A stretch of DNA of 64,000 bases from Desulforhabdus amnigena (lineage in GTDB: Bacteria > Desulfobacterota > Syntrophobacteria > Syntrophobacterales > Syntrophobacteraceae): positions 957,001 to 1,021,000 of the forward strand of contig NZ_BSDR01000001.1 in assembly GCF_027925305.1 (NCBI RefSeq). Reading direction: 5' to 3'. Made by a program: the position numbers and the translations under genes. This document shows positions 43,045-49,226 of the stretch, in pieces (the first letter of the stretch is position 1; each line of letters starts with the position of its first letter). The notes under the pieces are model-generated. The model made no database searches and was not told the DNA's origin. It saw nothing but the letters and a program-made list of their open reading frames with translations.

Positions 43045-44457
43045 GTGAAGGAGGCCGCATTGAAAAACAATCTCATTTTTGATTTCCGAACCATGAATCC
43101 TACCACGGACAGCGCTGAGCAGGAGCAGGAAGCTCTGATCGGAATTCTCATCAAGACGGTGGAGCATTTCTTCGGTGGTTTCCAGAAGATTTTTGGAGGC
43201 GCATCCGATCCGAGAGACCAGAGGAAGATCAACTACCCTCTTGCATCTCTTTGCTTTGCAGGAGTTCTCATGTTCTTGCTGAGACTCGGAGCCAGAAGAC
43301 AGGTCACATACCAACTCCGAAAGAATGAGCCCTCCAGGGAAAAGTTCGAGATCCTTTTCGGTGTCGACTCCTTTCCCCATGGTGATACCCTTAATGATCT
43401 CTACCTCAGGCTCTCTCCGCAAGAGGCTCAAGAGGCCGTTACCGGGATGGCCGAAACCCTCATCAGAAAGAAGGTGCTCTCTCGCTGGAGACTTCGGGGC
43501 ATCTACTATGTTGTGGCTGTCGATGGGACGGGGACCATTTCCTTCGACAAGAGACATTGCCCGTACTGTCTCACCCGGACTCACGGAACCAAGACGATCT
43601 ACTACCACGAGGTGCTCGAGGCAAAGCTCGTGACCCCAAACGGATTCGCCTTCTCCCTTATGACGGAATTCATCGAGAACCCCGGGGAGAATCCCGGCAA
43701 ACAGGACTGTGAGCTCAAGGCTTTCTACCGGCTTGCACAAAGACTCAAAGAAAGATTCCCCCGGCTTCCCCTGTGCATCAGCCTCGATAGCCTCTTTGCC
43801 GGCGGCCCCACCTTTGACCTGTGCAACCGATACGGCTGGAAGTTCTTGATCGTTCACAAGGATAACCTCCCCTCCGTTGAGCAACAGTTCGAGGCCCTCC
43901 AGAGATTCCATCCTGAGTGTCACCTCGAGTACCGGACAGGCAAAGAAGCCAGAATTCACCAGCAATACCGGTGGGTAAACAACATTCCCTATATCGATAC
44001 TGAAAACAGAGAGCACTCCCTTTGCGTTCTCCGGTGCCTTGAGACCAAACCGGATAAGACAGGGCAGATCAGGACCACTCGATTCCAGTGGGTTACCAAT
44101 TTCAAAATCAGTCAGGCAAGCGCCATCGAAATAGCCAACGATGGAGGAAGGAGCAGATGGATCATTGAAAACGAGGGCTTCAATGTCCAAAAAAACGGGG
44201 GATTTGAACTGGAACATGTTTACAGCAACAATGATGTCGCCTGCAAGATCTTCTACCTTCTCTTGCAGATCGCCTGCACTCTTTTTCAGCTCATCCAAAG
44301 AGGCAGTCTCTTTCGGAGAGCTTTCCCCACGGGAGTGGGATCGGCCAAAAACATCGCGTTCAGACTTCTCGAAGCTTGGCGCAACCTCAGGCTCGCTCGG
44401 GACTTCCTCGATAGAGTCCGGGCACAGCCATTCCAAATACGATTTGACACTTCCTGA
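43045..44457 (+). CDS. IS transposase, DDE type (IS4-like)
   Basis: 470 residues. A hydrophobic segment FAGVLMFLLRLGARRQVTYQL lies near residue 75. DDE-fold elements are VVAVDGTG (first Asp, about residue 158), LPLCISLDSLFAGG (second Asp, about 250) and the final Glu in RWIIENEGFNVQK (about 377). The last matches the Y-x2-R-x3-E-x6-K type box of IS4-like transposases in outline. No frameshift is seen, so it may be active. Its GC content is higher than the flanks. Terminal inverted repeats were not found by eye. Confidence 0.85.
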   Translation: MKEAALKNNLIFDFRTMNPTTDSAEQEQEALIGILIKTVEHFFGGFQKIFGGASDPRDQRKINYPLASLCFAGVLMFLLRLGARRQVTYQLRKNEPSREKFEILFGVDSFPHGDTLNDLYLRLSPQEAQEAVTGMAETLIRKKVLSRWRLRGIYYVVAVDGTGTISFDKRHCPYCLTRTHGTKTIYYHEVLEAKLVTPNGFAFSLMTEFIENPGENPGKQDCELKAFYRLAQRLKERFPRLPLCISLDSLFAGGPTFDLCNRYGWKFLIVHKDNLPSVEQQFEALQRFHPECHLEYRTGKEARIHQQYRWVNNIPYIDTENREHSLCVLRCLETKPDKTGQIRTTRFQWVTNFKISQASAIEIANDGGRSRWIIENEGFNVQKNGGFELEHVYSNNDVACKIFYLLLQIACTLFQLIQRGSLFRRAFPTGVGSAKNIAFRLLEAWRNLRLARDFLDRVRAQPFQIRFDTS

Positions 44458-44666: not shown

Positions 44667-45728
44667 TCAGTGTCCCGTATCTGTGACCCCCGCTTCTGCA
44701 AAGGTTTTTATTTCCTTGAGGACCTTCGCAGACGCTTCGATAATATTCATAGCCAGGGCAGATCCCGTACCTTCTCCGAGACGCATCTCAAGATCCAAAA
44801 TTGGACGCAACCCGAGGAGCTCCACCATGGTTGCATGTCCGATCTCCAGACTCTGGTGTGAAATAAAAAGATAATCCTTCGCAACAGGCATCAACCGGCA
44901 GGCAATCAGAGCCCCGGCTGTGGCGATGAAACCGTCGCACACGATGGGCGCCTTCACTGCCGCAGCTCCCAAAACGGCTCCAGCAAGACCGGCAATTTCA
45001 AAACCTCCCACCTTGGTCAACACATCCAAAGCATCTTCAGAATCCGGCTGATTCACTTTCAATGCCTTTTCGACCGCCCTGACTTTTCGATTGAAAGCTT
45101 CATCATCAATCCCGGTGCCGCGACCCGTCAATTGTGAGACGGGTTTTCCACTGAATGTTGCAACAATGGCCGTCGAAGGTGTGGTATTGGCTATTCCCAT
45201 GTCACCCGTACCAAACAGTTCATACCCTTCCTCGAGAAAGGCCTTCTCGACCAGGCCAGCCCCAAGGAGCAGTCCCTGAATAGCCTGCTCTCTGCTCATG
45301 GCGGGACCTTTGCAAATATTTGCTGTTCCCTTGCCTATTTTTTTATGCACCACCTGCCATTCTTCGGGGATGTCTGCCGCCACTCCGCAATCCACGACAC
45401 GGACATCAGCTCCAGCATGTTTGGCCAAGATATTGATGGAAGCCCATCCCTGGATAAAGCTGAAAACCATTTGTCCGGTAACTTCCTGGGGGTATGCACT
45501 GACTCCCTCTTCTGCCACACCATGATCTCCAGCCATGGTGAAGATGAGCTTCTTTTTGACTGACGGCGTCAGAGTACCCTGAATGGCAGCCAGACGTGAG
45601 GCAATCACTTCCAAATGTCCAAGCGAACCTCGAGGCCGGATCTGAGAATGCAGTCTCTCCCATGCCTTTTCTTGCCATTCCTTTGAACAGGGTTCAATAC
45701 GATTCATCAAGTTCTTGAGATTTTGCAA
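44667..45728 (-). CDS. cobT: Nicotinate-nucleotide--dimethylbenzimidazole phosphoribosyltransferase CobT
   Basis: 353 residues from a TTG at 45728 placed five bases after AAGGAGG; the ATG at 45743 is the longer choice but has no ribosome-binding site. It makes the alpha-ribazole phosphate used for the lower ligand of cobalamin. It has RPRGSLGHLEVIASRLA at the N-terminus, the ribose-binding GDMGIANTTPSTAIVATFSG, the GRGTGIDDEAFNRK loop, GGFEIAGLAGAVLGAA and a C-terminal LRLGEGTGSALAMNII. A cobalamin riboswitch with terminator precedes it, so it is repressed when B12 is abundant. Confidence 0.95.
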   Translation of the reverse strand: MQNLKNLMNRIEPCSKEWQEKAWERLHSQIRPRGSLGHLEVIASRLAAIQGTLTPSVKKKLIFTMAGDHGVAEEGVSAYPQEVTGQMVFSFIQGWASINILAKHAGADVRVVDCGVAADIPEEWQVVHKKIGKGTANICKGPAMSREQAIQGLLLGAGLVEKAFLEEGYELFGTGDMGIANTTPSTAIVATFSGKPVSQLTGRGTGIDDEAFNRKVRAVEKALKVNQPDSEDALDVLTKVGGFEIAGLAGAVLGAAAVKAPIVCDGFIATAGALIACRLMPVAKDYLFISHQSLEIGHATMVELLGLRPILDLEMRLGEGTGSALAMNIIEASAKVLKEIKTFAEAGVTDTGH

Positions 45729-45768
45729 TTTATCCTCCTTCATGAATTACTTGAACTATAACCGTTCC

Positions 45769-45815: not shown

Positions 45816-45859
45816 GCTTGATGGCTTCGGCAATCTCGAGCCATTACCCTGAAAACTCA

Positions 45860-46045
45860 GGCATCCTCTCCATCGCAGGTCTTCTGACTTGCGGTTCGCT
45901 TTACTCTCTGTTCCTTCCCATTCCTTGCCCAAAATATACGGGCTTGCAGGAACAGTGGCTGTTTCTCAGATTTCATCCCCGCTCACAGCGTCGGCCAAAC
46001 GCTACGGTTTTTCACCGTATTCCCATTTAAGCACACAGGCACAAC
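45860..46045 (-). promoter_or_regulatory. Cobalamin riboswitch upstream of cobT
   Basis: Minus-strand signature elements: GCCTGTGTGCTTAAATGGG near the 5' side, AACGGTGAAAAACCGT-type hairpin (TACGGTGAAAAACCGTA), CAGCCACTG, and the B12-box region AAGTCAGAAGACCTGC near 45880. The 3' portion overlaps alternative hairpins: GATTGC/GCAATC (45812-45817 with 45830-45835) and ATGGCT/AGCCAT (45821-45826 with 45839-45844). These are mutually exclusive with each other, and the first also with the terminator stem. Confidence 0.85.
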
Positions 46046-46083
46046 GAAGAGGCTTAACAGAAAAAACTCTTTCTCGAAAAGTA

Positions 46084-46673: not shown

Positions 46674-47654
46674 TCAATAGAAAATGGTACGGCAGCGATG
46701 GTATGGCCTCTTTCTGAAGGATTCCATCTGCCCCAATTGCCAGAGCCAGTTGTCAACCCAGGTGCTGCTGACTTCTCTTCCCTGTGCCGCAAATGCATTC
46801 TTTAGTGCTTCCACCGCCCATACAGTCATCGCCCGGATTTCTATCTCTTCCTCACACCCCTGAGACAATACTTGCATGGAATCGACCTTGCTGGCCAAGT
46901 CCGGATGGTATGAGATCACTCCCAATGCTCTCAAAACTTGAGGTAACTTATAGTCGGCAAAAGCCGTGAGTTTATCCATATGTATGAATTTTCCCCACTT
47001 TCGTCCAGCAAATGCCAGATTCACATCCGAAATGAAGATTTGTGCTCTTTTCCAGAAATAGACTTCTATCTCACCATATCGAGCGTCATCGCGAAAACTG
47101 GGAAAAGAATCCACGATTTTTTTTACTGCGACCAGGGCATTTCCTTTTGCCGACTCAAGTAGATGAATGATATCACCCCGCCACGTAGAGTTCAGAATCC
47201 GACCCGCTTCTCTAAGATTGAAAAGCCGTTCTTCAAAGAGTGGAATTTCCACATTTCCCGACAAAATCCCTTTCAGATCATCGGCAGAAAGATTTGCCAG
47301 AAAATCCGGTTGAGTGATAGGAATCCCACTTTCTTGAGCACGCTTGAGACTTGCAGCCAACCCCCAATAACCTGATCGGGGACTTCCACCGTAGTGTATT
47401 GTCCAGGTCGGTTCGCCCACATCTGGCCAGAAGCAATGGTTTAAAATGTCCAAAACAAAAATCCAACGAACGGTTTCCTCGGAGTCATCGAAAAAGTGAC
47501 AAACGTTTTGCCATTCTCCCAAATCCCGAAAATAATCTCCCCATTTTTCCACAGCGGGTCGCACCAATTCGGGATGAAAGAATACACGACTGCATCGAGA
47601 AACGACTGCTGCTATCGATGGTAAAATAAAAAATTGAGCTTGATCATTTCGCAT
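46674..47654 (-). CDS. Queuosine 5'-phosphate N-glycosylase/hydrolase (Qng1, DUF2419)
   Basis: 326 residues. The family pattern is continuous: WIFVLDILNHCFWPD (about residues 65-80), WTIHYGGSPRSGYWGLAASL, IPITQPDFLANLS, the long YFWKRAQIFISDVNLAF, FIHMDKLTAFADYKLPQ, and VEIRA-like IEIRAMTVWAVEAL to WVDNWLWQLGQ. Qng1 releases queuine from queuosine 5'-monophosphate so it can be reused for tRNA modification. It appears complete and in one piece. No other queuosine genes (tgt, queA, queG, YhhQ) are nearby, so it stands alone and may have been acquired by transfer. Confidence 0.88.
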   Translation of the reverse strand: MRNDQAQFFILPSIAAVVSRCSRVFFHPELVRPAVEKWGDYFRDLGEWQNVCHFFDDSEETVRWIFVLDILNHCFWPDVGEPTWTIHYGGSPRSGYWGLAASLKRAQESGIPITQPDFLANLSADDLKGILSGNVEIPLFEERLFNLREAGRILNSTWRGDIIHLLESAKGNALVAVKKIVDSFPSFRDDARYGEIEVYFWKRAQIFISDVNLAFAGRKWGKFIHMDKLTAFADYKLPQVLRALGVISYHPDLASKVDSMQVLSQGCEEEIEIRAMTVWAVEALKNAFAAQGREVSSTWVDNWLWQLGQMESFRKRPYHRCRTIFY

Positions 47655-47876
47655 TGTTGGTGCTCCTCATAGAGGCACACAAAAGGCATGGAAAAAAACA
47701 GGTATTGGAATCTGAAAAACGAATATATTATAACATCTGGAAATAACAGCCTAAAAATATTTCATCTCAATAACAAAGCCCATGCGAGGACCTTTCCAGC
47801 ACCTTACATGGGCTTTTCTTTTTGGAATGTAATTTTTCTGAAAATTCAAGAGCGATGATGATAATGAAATGTTCGA

Positions 47877-49034
47877 TCAGGAAGTTGCAGCTTCTACAGC
47901 GATCTGACTTTCAGTTGCCGGTGCCAGAACCTCCTGGGCATACCGCTCCTTTACTCTCAGCAGGTAAATCACTACGGGCCTATAAGCCAGATGGGCCCAT
48001 TTGGCGAAAGGTACTTCCAGAACAAGCATGGGAACAGCTACCATCATATGAATGATATAAAGGAAATAGGTTGTAGCGGGCCAGTCCAGTAAGCGGGTGA
48101 AGTGAACAAAGATGCCGGTCAGGGTTGTCAACTGCAACAAAATGAGAAACATCCAGTCGGTCGGATGGGAATTTTGATAGGGCGGTTTGTTCTTCTTCAA
48201 ACGTCCGATGATGGCATAGGTGGTGCCGTATAGGATCGCAAACGTCGCATAATACCCCACCAATCGTACGGGATGCGAGAACGCATATTCAATGTGATCG
48301 CGTTGAAACCATCTGATGAACACAACGACCAACAGAAAAACGGATGAGTACCCCGTCATAATCATCAGGTGTACGAACCATTGCATCTTGTCCGAACATT
48401 TGCCGAAACGCTTTTGAGTCAGAAAATGAAGCAACAGTTCCTTGGCTTCGGTAGCATAAATCCTGAGAGGGACCTTAAACGCCAGCTTCCCCATAATGAT
48501 TCTAAAGCACCGAAAAACATTGCTCAAAAGCAGAAAGGAAAGGATTCCACCCATTATGAGATCTGCAATTTCAATATGTTCGGCAGGCCATAAGGAGTTC
48601 AACGCGGCATGTTCCCAATTAGGATGGCCAGTATTGAAAATGAGAAGTCCAATTCCGACCAACAAGGCAACAATAGAGATGGCGATGATTTCAAATCTTT
48701 CAGATGTATAAAATTTGCGGGCAAAACCTGTCCAATCGTAAAGAGAGGTCAAATAGCGTCGCATGACCATCATGGTTTCACCAGGGTCCGCACCGCGAGG
48801 ACAATGGGTTGAACAATCTCCACAATAATAGCAGAGCCAGGGTTCCGGAGCATGGAGCAATTTTTCTCTCTGTCCCAATTGGATGAGCCGCACCATTTTT
48901 CTTGGAAAAGGATTCTCGGGTGTCGAGAGAGGGCAAATGGCCGTACAGTTTCCACAGTTAAAGCATTTGTTGGCGTCTTTAAGACCGAAGGATTCCAAAT
49001 CTTTTATCAAGGTGGGGTCGACTCTGTTACTCAT
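47877..49034 (-). CDS. qmoC: Quinone-interacting membrane-bound oxidoreductase subunit QmoC
   Basis: 385 residues from the ATG at 49034, which has AGGAGG seven bases upstream; the longer frame to 49220 crosses an intercistronic hairpin and is not used. The N-terminus binds two [4Fe-4S] clusters: CFNCGNCTAICPLS (about residue 21) and CYYCGDCSTHCPRG (about 65), HdrC-like. It is followed by six transmembrane helices of the cytochrome b (NarI-like) type with histidines for haem. It accepts electrons from menaquinol and passes them to QmoAB and then APS reductase. Confidence 0.96.
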   Translation of the reverse strand: MSNRVDPTLIKDLESFGLKDANKCFNCGNCTAICPLSTPENPFPRKMVRLIQLGQREKLLHAPEPWLCYYCGDCSTHCPRGADPGETMMVMRRYLTSLYDWTGFARKFYTSERFEIIAISIVALLVGIGLLIFNTGHPNWEHAALNSLWPAEHIEIADLIMGGILSFLLLSNVFRCFRIIMGKLAFKVPLRIYATEAKELLLHFLTQKRFGKCSDKMQWFVHLMIMTGYSSVFLLVVVFIRWFQRDHIEYAFSHPVRLVGYYATFAILYGTTYAIIGRLKKNKPPYQNSHPTDWMFLILLQLTTLTGIFVHFTRLLDWPATTYFLYIIHMMVAVPMLVLEVPFAKWAHLAYRPVVIYLLRVKERYAQEVLAPATESQIAVEAATS

Positions 49035-49142
49035 CGCAATGCCTCCTGTCACTATAGAAGTTAGGAAGATGACTTTCACAAAGCAAAGTCTGATAAAATC
49101 AGGAGCCTGGAATGCCTCAACGCCAAGCAATCTCACGAAAAA

Positions 49143-49226
49143 GGCGCCGGATGTTCCTTTTTTTACCTTCGGTTCAAGGCTCCCGATTTGTATCGGCGCC
49201 CCCATGTTCTCGATGGACATGGGGGC
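49143..49226 (-). terminator. Intercistronic hairpins between qmoB and qmoC
   Basis: Just after the qmoB stop: GCCCCCATG/CATGGGGGC (49226-49198, 11-base loop). A second pairing GGCGCCGAT with ATCCGGCGCC (49200-49143) ends in five U residues. The two share positions 49198-49200, so they may be alternative folds that attenuate read-through into qmoC or stabilise the qmoAB mRNA. Confidence 0.55.

Follow-up and report, generated by a model that had tools for sequence, protein, structure and literature searches.

A qng1 gene in Desulforhabdus amnigena

The window analysed here is a stretch of 64,000 nucleotides from the genome of Desulforhabdus amnigena, and its minus strand carries a qng1 gene that encodes a protein of 326 residues. 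The reading frame begins with ATG, with GAGGAG a few bases 5' of it, and contains no internal stops. Two flavoprotein-like reading frames and an iron-sulfur protein gene lie upstream on the same strand, and downstream are genes for a DUF3303 protein and a DBI_PRT phosphoribosyltransferase, together with a cobalamin riboswitch. The features of the locus are:

43045-44457, plus strand: transposase-like reading frame, matching DDE_Tnp_1_assoc under the curated cut-off
44667-45743: DBI_PRT phosphoribosyltransferase gene, which we take to be of the cobT type
45857-46061, minus strand: cobalamin riboswitch (RF00174, 84.9 bits), upstream of the DBI_PRT gene
46674..47654, minus strand: qng1
46740..46754, minus strand: codons for D301-W305; D301 and W305 correspond to Sphaerobacter D298 and W302
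46953..46955, minus strand: codon for D234, corresponding to Sphaerobacter D231, mutated in 7ulc (D231N)
47043..47051, minus strand: codons for K202-A204 (KRA); K202 corresponds to Sphaerobacter K199, mutated in 7u5a (K199C)
47775..47816, minus strand: hairpin with 11 outer pairs (folding z -3.4, equalled by 1 of 200 shuffled sequences)
47877-49220, same strand as qng1: iron-sulfur protein reading frame, matching Pfam Fer4 families

The encoded protein matches the Pfam family Q_salvage (PF10343, DUF2419) with an E-value of 9.4e-88 and 294.9 bits, against a curated cut-off of 25, and the match spans positions 2-285 of the 285-position profile. A sequence search of the PDB recovers Sphaerobacter Qng1 (7uk3/7u07, E 9e-72) and human Qng1 (7ugk, E 2.5e-51). 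An AlphaFold model built from 34 input sequences has a mean pLDDT of 93 and superimposes on Sphaerobacter Qng1 with bound queuosine 5'-phosphate (7u91) with a TM-score of 0.92 (E 1.4e-29, 40% identity), and on human Qng1 (7ugk) with a TM-score of 0.89. Sphaerobacter D298 and W302 are given as active-site residues in PMC11592518. All four catalytic residues, K202, D234, D301 and W305, are present in the window protein and conserved without exception in the alignment of 81 Qng1 proteins, which has 31 invariant columns in all. The full family pattern claimed in the preliminary description is thus borne out, as are its catalytic residues, and the assignment of the protein as Qng1 by family, full-length profile, modelled fold and conserved residues is well supported. 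A whole-genome profile search found this one Qng1 match only.

Genomic neighbourhood of qng1

Reading frames of at least 80 codons between 40000 and 54000 were inspected, six by Pfam and the rest by eye. The six searched with Pfam include no transporter, tgt or que gene, and the earlier statement that none flanks qng1 stands on both kinds of inspection. The iron-sulfur frame and the two flavoprotein-like frames upstream presumably represent qmoCBA. Because a strong hairpin separates the upstream frame from qng1, qng1 may be transcribed alone; the hairpin is possibly the end of the upstream transcript, and a consensus scan of the interval between the two genes gave no terminator-like hit.

Neighbourhoods were compared across 81 loci, in five of which (L033, L037, L043, L048 and L053) the simple reading-frame picker used for the maps lost qng1 itself. 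One locus from the same family, Syntrophobacteraceae (L045), has the same upstream clusters and both downstream genes; the neighbourhood otherwise varies, and no conserved qng1 neighbour throughout the order was seen among the ten neighbour clusters annotated. Those named include a CCA-adding enzyme, a TetR protein, a cNMP-binding protein and a periplasmic binding protein, with MurE in Ktedonobacteria. A gene of the CCA-adding enzyme or poly(A) polymerase type lies directly upstream of qng1 at five loci (L052, L055, L067, L068 and L073), which hints at a link to tRNA turnover. Apparent fusions of Qng1 in two loci (L029 and L030, open frames of 601 codons) were rejected, since the additional codons overlap an adjacent gene that is read in a different frame.

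Queuosine genes elsewhere in the genome

The window genome is a single contig of 4.54 Mb with a completeness of 99.4. Whole-genome Pfam searches recovered tgt (E 7.5e-172) and queA (E 6.9e-132), which adjoin each other, and queH (E 6.2e-60). A row of queD, queE, queC and queF reading frames is present at G000:C1:4319813-4322322, in which queC is assigned by Pfam (E 2.1e-79) and queD, queE and queF beside it are named from their sequences, as we read them. The queE region also falls among the 51 radical SAM matches of the genome. De novo synthesis of queuosine (Q) thus looks complete in this species, as judged from its QueC, QueD, QueE, QueF, TGT, QueA and QueH sequences. The importer search covered the QPTR family only (PF02592) and gave no match at E ≤ 0.001 in the window genome; in Desulforhabdus sp. 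TSK (G395), of the same genus, QPTR is matched weakly (E 1e-6). The gene had been described as a lone one, and this is accurate for its flank but not for the genome, where tgt, queA, queH and queDECF lie elsewhere and the QPTR importer was not found.

Distribution and phylogeny of Qng1

Qng1 is present in 35 of the 39 genomes of the window's order, and another member of the genus (G296) carries it. Across the phylum sample it is patchy, with 34 of 395 genomes matching at E ≤ 0.001 and 33 of 395 over the cut-off. We constructed a quick tree of the window protein and the 80 best named loci of 289 found, without bootstrap and with 28 of its 78 inner branches open. In this tree the window protein pairs with that of Desulforhabdus sp. 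TSK (SH-aLRT 96), and the pair lies inside a set of 25 rows (SH-aLRT 98) that contains all 15 rows named Syntrophobacteraceae. Labels reading 'Myxococcota' in the tree probably go back to old 'Deltaproteobacteria bacterium' titles.

These data bear on the possibility that the window copy was recently transferred, or is a functionless relic in decay. The patchiness in the phylum is in keeping with it, as are the much more divergent copies in two genomes of the window's own family (G371 and G442), a genome with two copies (G454) and another with one broken-looking frame in two pieces (G455), and these same cases indicate that the history of Qng1 has not been purely vertical. Nonetheless, the retention across the order, the position in the tree beside the congener and with the Syntrophobacteraceae rows, and the stop-free frame with its catalytic residues intact all argue against either a transfer or a relic, and we regard both as very improbable. 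A recent horizontal transfer would be expected to leave the gene patchy among close relatives of the window's species and the tree in conflict with taxonomy, and neither is seen. The view in the preliminary description that bacterial homologues are scattered and probably moved by transfer therefore does not fit this order as a whole, although transfer may have occurred elsewhere, given the divergent copies in G371 and G442 and the patchiness in the phylum.

Residues that separate the Qng1 clades

The alignment of 81 proteins separates three groups at positions 64, 73 and 137: W64/H73/I137 in the window's clade (the NHCFW clade), Y64/F73/L137 in a sister clade, and W64/F73/I137 in Ktedonobacteria. 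Residue 73 is histidine in 42 of 43 members of the window's clade and phenylalanine in 24 of 25 and 13 of 13 members of the sister clades; the exceptions are a tyrosine in L077 and a histidine in L084 of the other clade. Both Sphaerobacter and human Qng1 have phenylalanine here. Since His73 replaces the phenylalanine of solved relatives and sister clades, a shifted substrate is conceivable, with the NHCFW clade acting on a different 7-deazaguanine nucleotide, be it that of epoxyqueuosine or preQ1 or a Q nucleotide carrying a sugar or glutamyl group. An account in PMC11130926 is compatible with this, in that a transporter encoded beside an Acidobacteriota qng1 carried preQ0 and preQ1, unexpectedly for its authors. 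Against it, the four catalytic residues and the remaining invariant columns are shared by all 81 proteins, and phenylalanine or tyrosine occupies position 73 in three proteins from the window's own order (L007, L009 and L020). A change of substrate is in our view distinctly improbable.

TGT pockets in Qng1-carrying genomes

TGT proteins were drawn from 66 searched genomes, of which 64 gave a match, and the loop meeting the 7-substituent was read; the genomes were hand-picked, mostly from loci on longer contigs, and incomplete metagenome-assembled genomes among them can fake absences. The single TGT of the window genome has the motifs FDECTTYP and GSLSVGE, with residues that we place, by the numbering of Zymomonas TGT, at Cys150 and Val220. 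Queuine-salvaging TGTs typically have GG[LS][AS]G, and valine may prevent queuine binding, according to PMC11570991. The GSLSVGE loop does not fit that pocket, and the only TGT of the window's species looks to be of the preQ1 type and unable to take queuine.

The same pattern extends through the window's Qng1 clade, in which none of the 28 searched genomes (Ktedonobacteria excluded) has a second or short-loop TGT. One TGT is present in 27 of these 28 genomes, with valine in 26 of the 27 and isoleucine in the other, and G419 has no TGT match. By comparison, 9 of the 11 searched genomes of the sister Qng1 clade have a TGT whose loop is one residue shorter (GGSLG, GGALG, GGSVG or GGFLG), the same length as the printed motif GG[LS][AS]G, albeit without a fit at every place. 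In five of these nine genomes the short-loop TGT is a second one, with a canonical TGT elsewhere, and in four (G432, G433, G438 and G439) no other kind turned up. Five of the nine (G423, G427, G430, G431 and G433) have it adjoining qng1.

In 16 of the 80 named loci a same-strand TGT reading frame adjoins qng1; 15 of these frames are long and one has 140 codons (L093). The 16 are L072, L074, L078, L082, L088, L089, L091, L093-L097, L101, L103, L107 and L110, and all fall within the 25 tree rows of the sister clade, with none in the other 56 rows. The two reading frames abut or overlap in several loci, and the TGT loop is of the shorter GGSLG type wherever readable. The TGT beside qng1 is likely a dedicated queuine-inserting enzyme.

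Three genomes of Acetothermia/Bipolaricaulota (G432, G433 and G439; loci L092, L094 and L112) have Qng1 and a short-loop TGT only. They gave no QueA, QueH or QPTR match, and their QueC matches are only weak, so they are possibly obligate queuine salvagers; if these gaps do not stem from incompleteness, the three must salvage queuine, which supports a queuine-inserting role for the short-loop TGT. G438 likewise has only a short-loop TGT, but a QueA-like gene is present. Coupling of the two genes is not strict, as two sister-clade genomes (G421 and G428) have Qng1 without a short-loop TGT. Seven further Qng1 carriers (G371, G034, G348, G293, G277, G132 and G331) also have none; G132 and G331 have Qng1 with the residues of the sister clade, and G348 has two TGTs, both with the SVGE loop. 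No second TGT was found in 13 genomes without Qng1, among which G016 has no TGT and G019 has one in two pieces.

The Ktedonobacteria (L181-L186) show a different, divergent second TGT in six of seven genomes, with the loop GGWPLD in five and an incomplete frame in L186. Four of them (G424, G425, G429 and G435) also have a second, divergent QueA.

Possible recycling of queuine

In the current understanding Qng1 serves salvage in queuine-requiring organisms. One possible role here is direct recycling, with the single TGT accepting queuine well enough despite its valine and closing a Qng1-TGT loop that would spare synthesis. A precedent is described in PMC11570991, where Bartonella henselae, with a GGLAVG-type TGT and QPTR, can process queuine when given enough, although the levels needed are there called not physiological. 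The serine at the second glycine place (GSL) in the TGTs of the window's species and its nearest kin could be taken in favour; we rejected it as a marker for the use of queuine, because it does not track Qng1, being present in two members of the order that lack Qng1 (G390 and G352) and replaced by GGL in the Qng1 carriers G414-G417 and G420. The near-invariant TGT valine of the window's clade, exchanged only for isoleucine, is a further argument against, and we consider direct recycling doubtful.

A second route would be indirect, in which a radical SAM lyase of the QueL type converts queuine to preQ1 for use by TGT, QueA and QueH, with Qng1 replacing the QueK of Clostridioides difficile. The set that this requires, a preQ1-type TGT with QueA and QueH, is present, and the genome's radical SAM matches offer many candidates. 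Eight radical SAM proteins lacking an assigned role, of the 51, were compared with the PDB (L204 alone and seven joined), and no queuine lyase was named among their matches; the comparison presumes that a queuine lyase chain is present in the PDB, as we assume, and is weak for that reason. None of the ten annotated qng1 neighbour clusters is a radical SAM gene. Indirect recycling appears quite unlikely.

Probable function of Qng1 in the window's species

We favour instead the reading that an active Qng1 clears queuosine 5'-phosphate arising from decay of the cell's own tRNA, and consider this probable. The predicted enzyme is an N-glycosidase with a DNA-glycosylase-like fold that would cleave queuosine 5'-phosphate by hydrolysis, yielding queuine and ribose 5-phosphate; substrate and product are assigned by analogy with solved relatives. 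With Q-making genes present and no QPTR match, the nucleotide would most likely come from the decay of Q-containing tRNA within the cell. Simple salvage is not an obvious purpose, because the only TGT looks unable to accept queuine.

The preliminary description had asked what becomes of the released queuine, and that question is sharpened by the preQ1-type TGT being the only one. Among the possible fates we would rank release first, then weak re-use, then a lyase. Clearance of a nucleotide otherwise unusable to the cell, which would retain the ribose 5-phosphate and give off the queuine, is put forward tentatively, at slightly short of an even chance; the long upkeep of qng1 is harder to explain if queuine has no user. 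Weak re-use of queuine by the valine-type TGT seems somewhat doubtful, and conversion to preQ1 by a lyase, of which none has been found so far, unlikely.

Comparison with known systems

Among the closest known systems is Qng1 of Sphaerobacter thermophilus (7u07, 7u91, 7ulc, 7u5a and 7u1o), which shares the fold and catalytic residues but has phenylalanine where the window protein has His73. Eukaryotic queuine salvage couples an enzyme of the same family with a queuine-type TGT; eukaryotes cannot make Q, whereas the Q pathway of the window's species looks complete and its TGT of the preQ1 type. Queuine salvage is direct in Chlamydia trachomatis and indirect, via QueK and QueL, in C. difficile, as reported in PMC11570991. 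The likeness to these lies in queuine being released or used from Q breakdown; unlike them, the window genome has no queuine-type TGT, QPTR was not found, and QueL was not found among the 8 of 51 radical SAM proteins compared. The qng1-TGT pairs of other Thermodesulfobacteriota and Acetothermia employ the same enzyme family, and five of nine genomes also have a canonical TGT, but these systems own the shorter-loop TGT, often beside qng1, that the window's clade lacks in 28 of 28 searched genomes.

That Qng1 occurs alongside Q synthesis is not claimed here as new, because this is probably visible in the Qng1 protein network of PMC11130926 (Fig. 6), which is marked by the Q genes of each species; the same paper surveyed the neighbours of TGT, Qng1 and QueK. 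Our literature search turned up no paper that reports a second TGT next to Qng1 in its title or abstract. This does not prove absence, and the bacterial qng1-tgt neighbourhood may well have been published already. Our additions are the split of the Qng1 clades, the retention of the gene across the order and the differing TGT loops; the window's case is that of a familiar enzyme kept for long in an unusual context. The present view of salvage does not explain this Qng1, since the order keeps the gene while the window's species appears to make Q and is without a queuine-type TGT.

A broader proposal is that Qng1 works in two modes, being wired to a queuine-inserting TGT in the sister clade and degrading Q nucleotides that derive from the tRNA of the cell itself, with release of queuine, in the NHCFW clade, where most members have the preQ1-type TGT only and many are Q makers. 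This is speculative, and doubtful as a whole. If it were true, anaerobes of the NHCFW clade would give off free queuine, which is a micronutrient for eukaryotes, themselves unable to synthesise it. The sister clade, with its queuine-type TGT often beside qng1, offers a clean comparison for the purpose of Qng1 in bacteria, and the same comparison bears on the natural origin of free queuine.

Synthesis and import of precursors

The window's species should not be taken to represent its whole clade, as a strong QueC match is missing in 13 of the 28 searched genomes. Eleven of these 13 have QPTR, and part of the clade therefore seems to import preQ0 or preQ1. Across the 66 genomes QueC and QPTR tend not to occur together (7 with both, 30 with QueC only, 19 with QPTR only and 10 with neither). 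In Desulfacinum infernum (G411), QueC is absent and QPTR is present.
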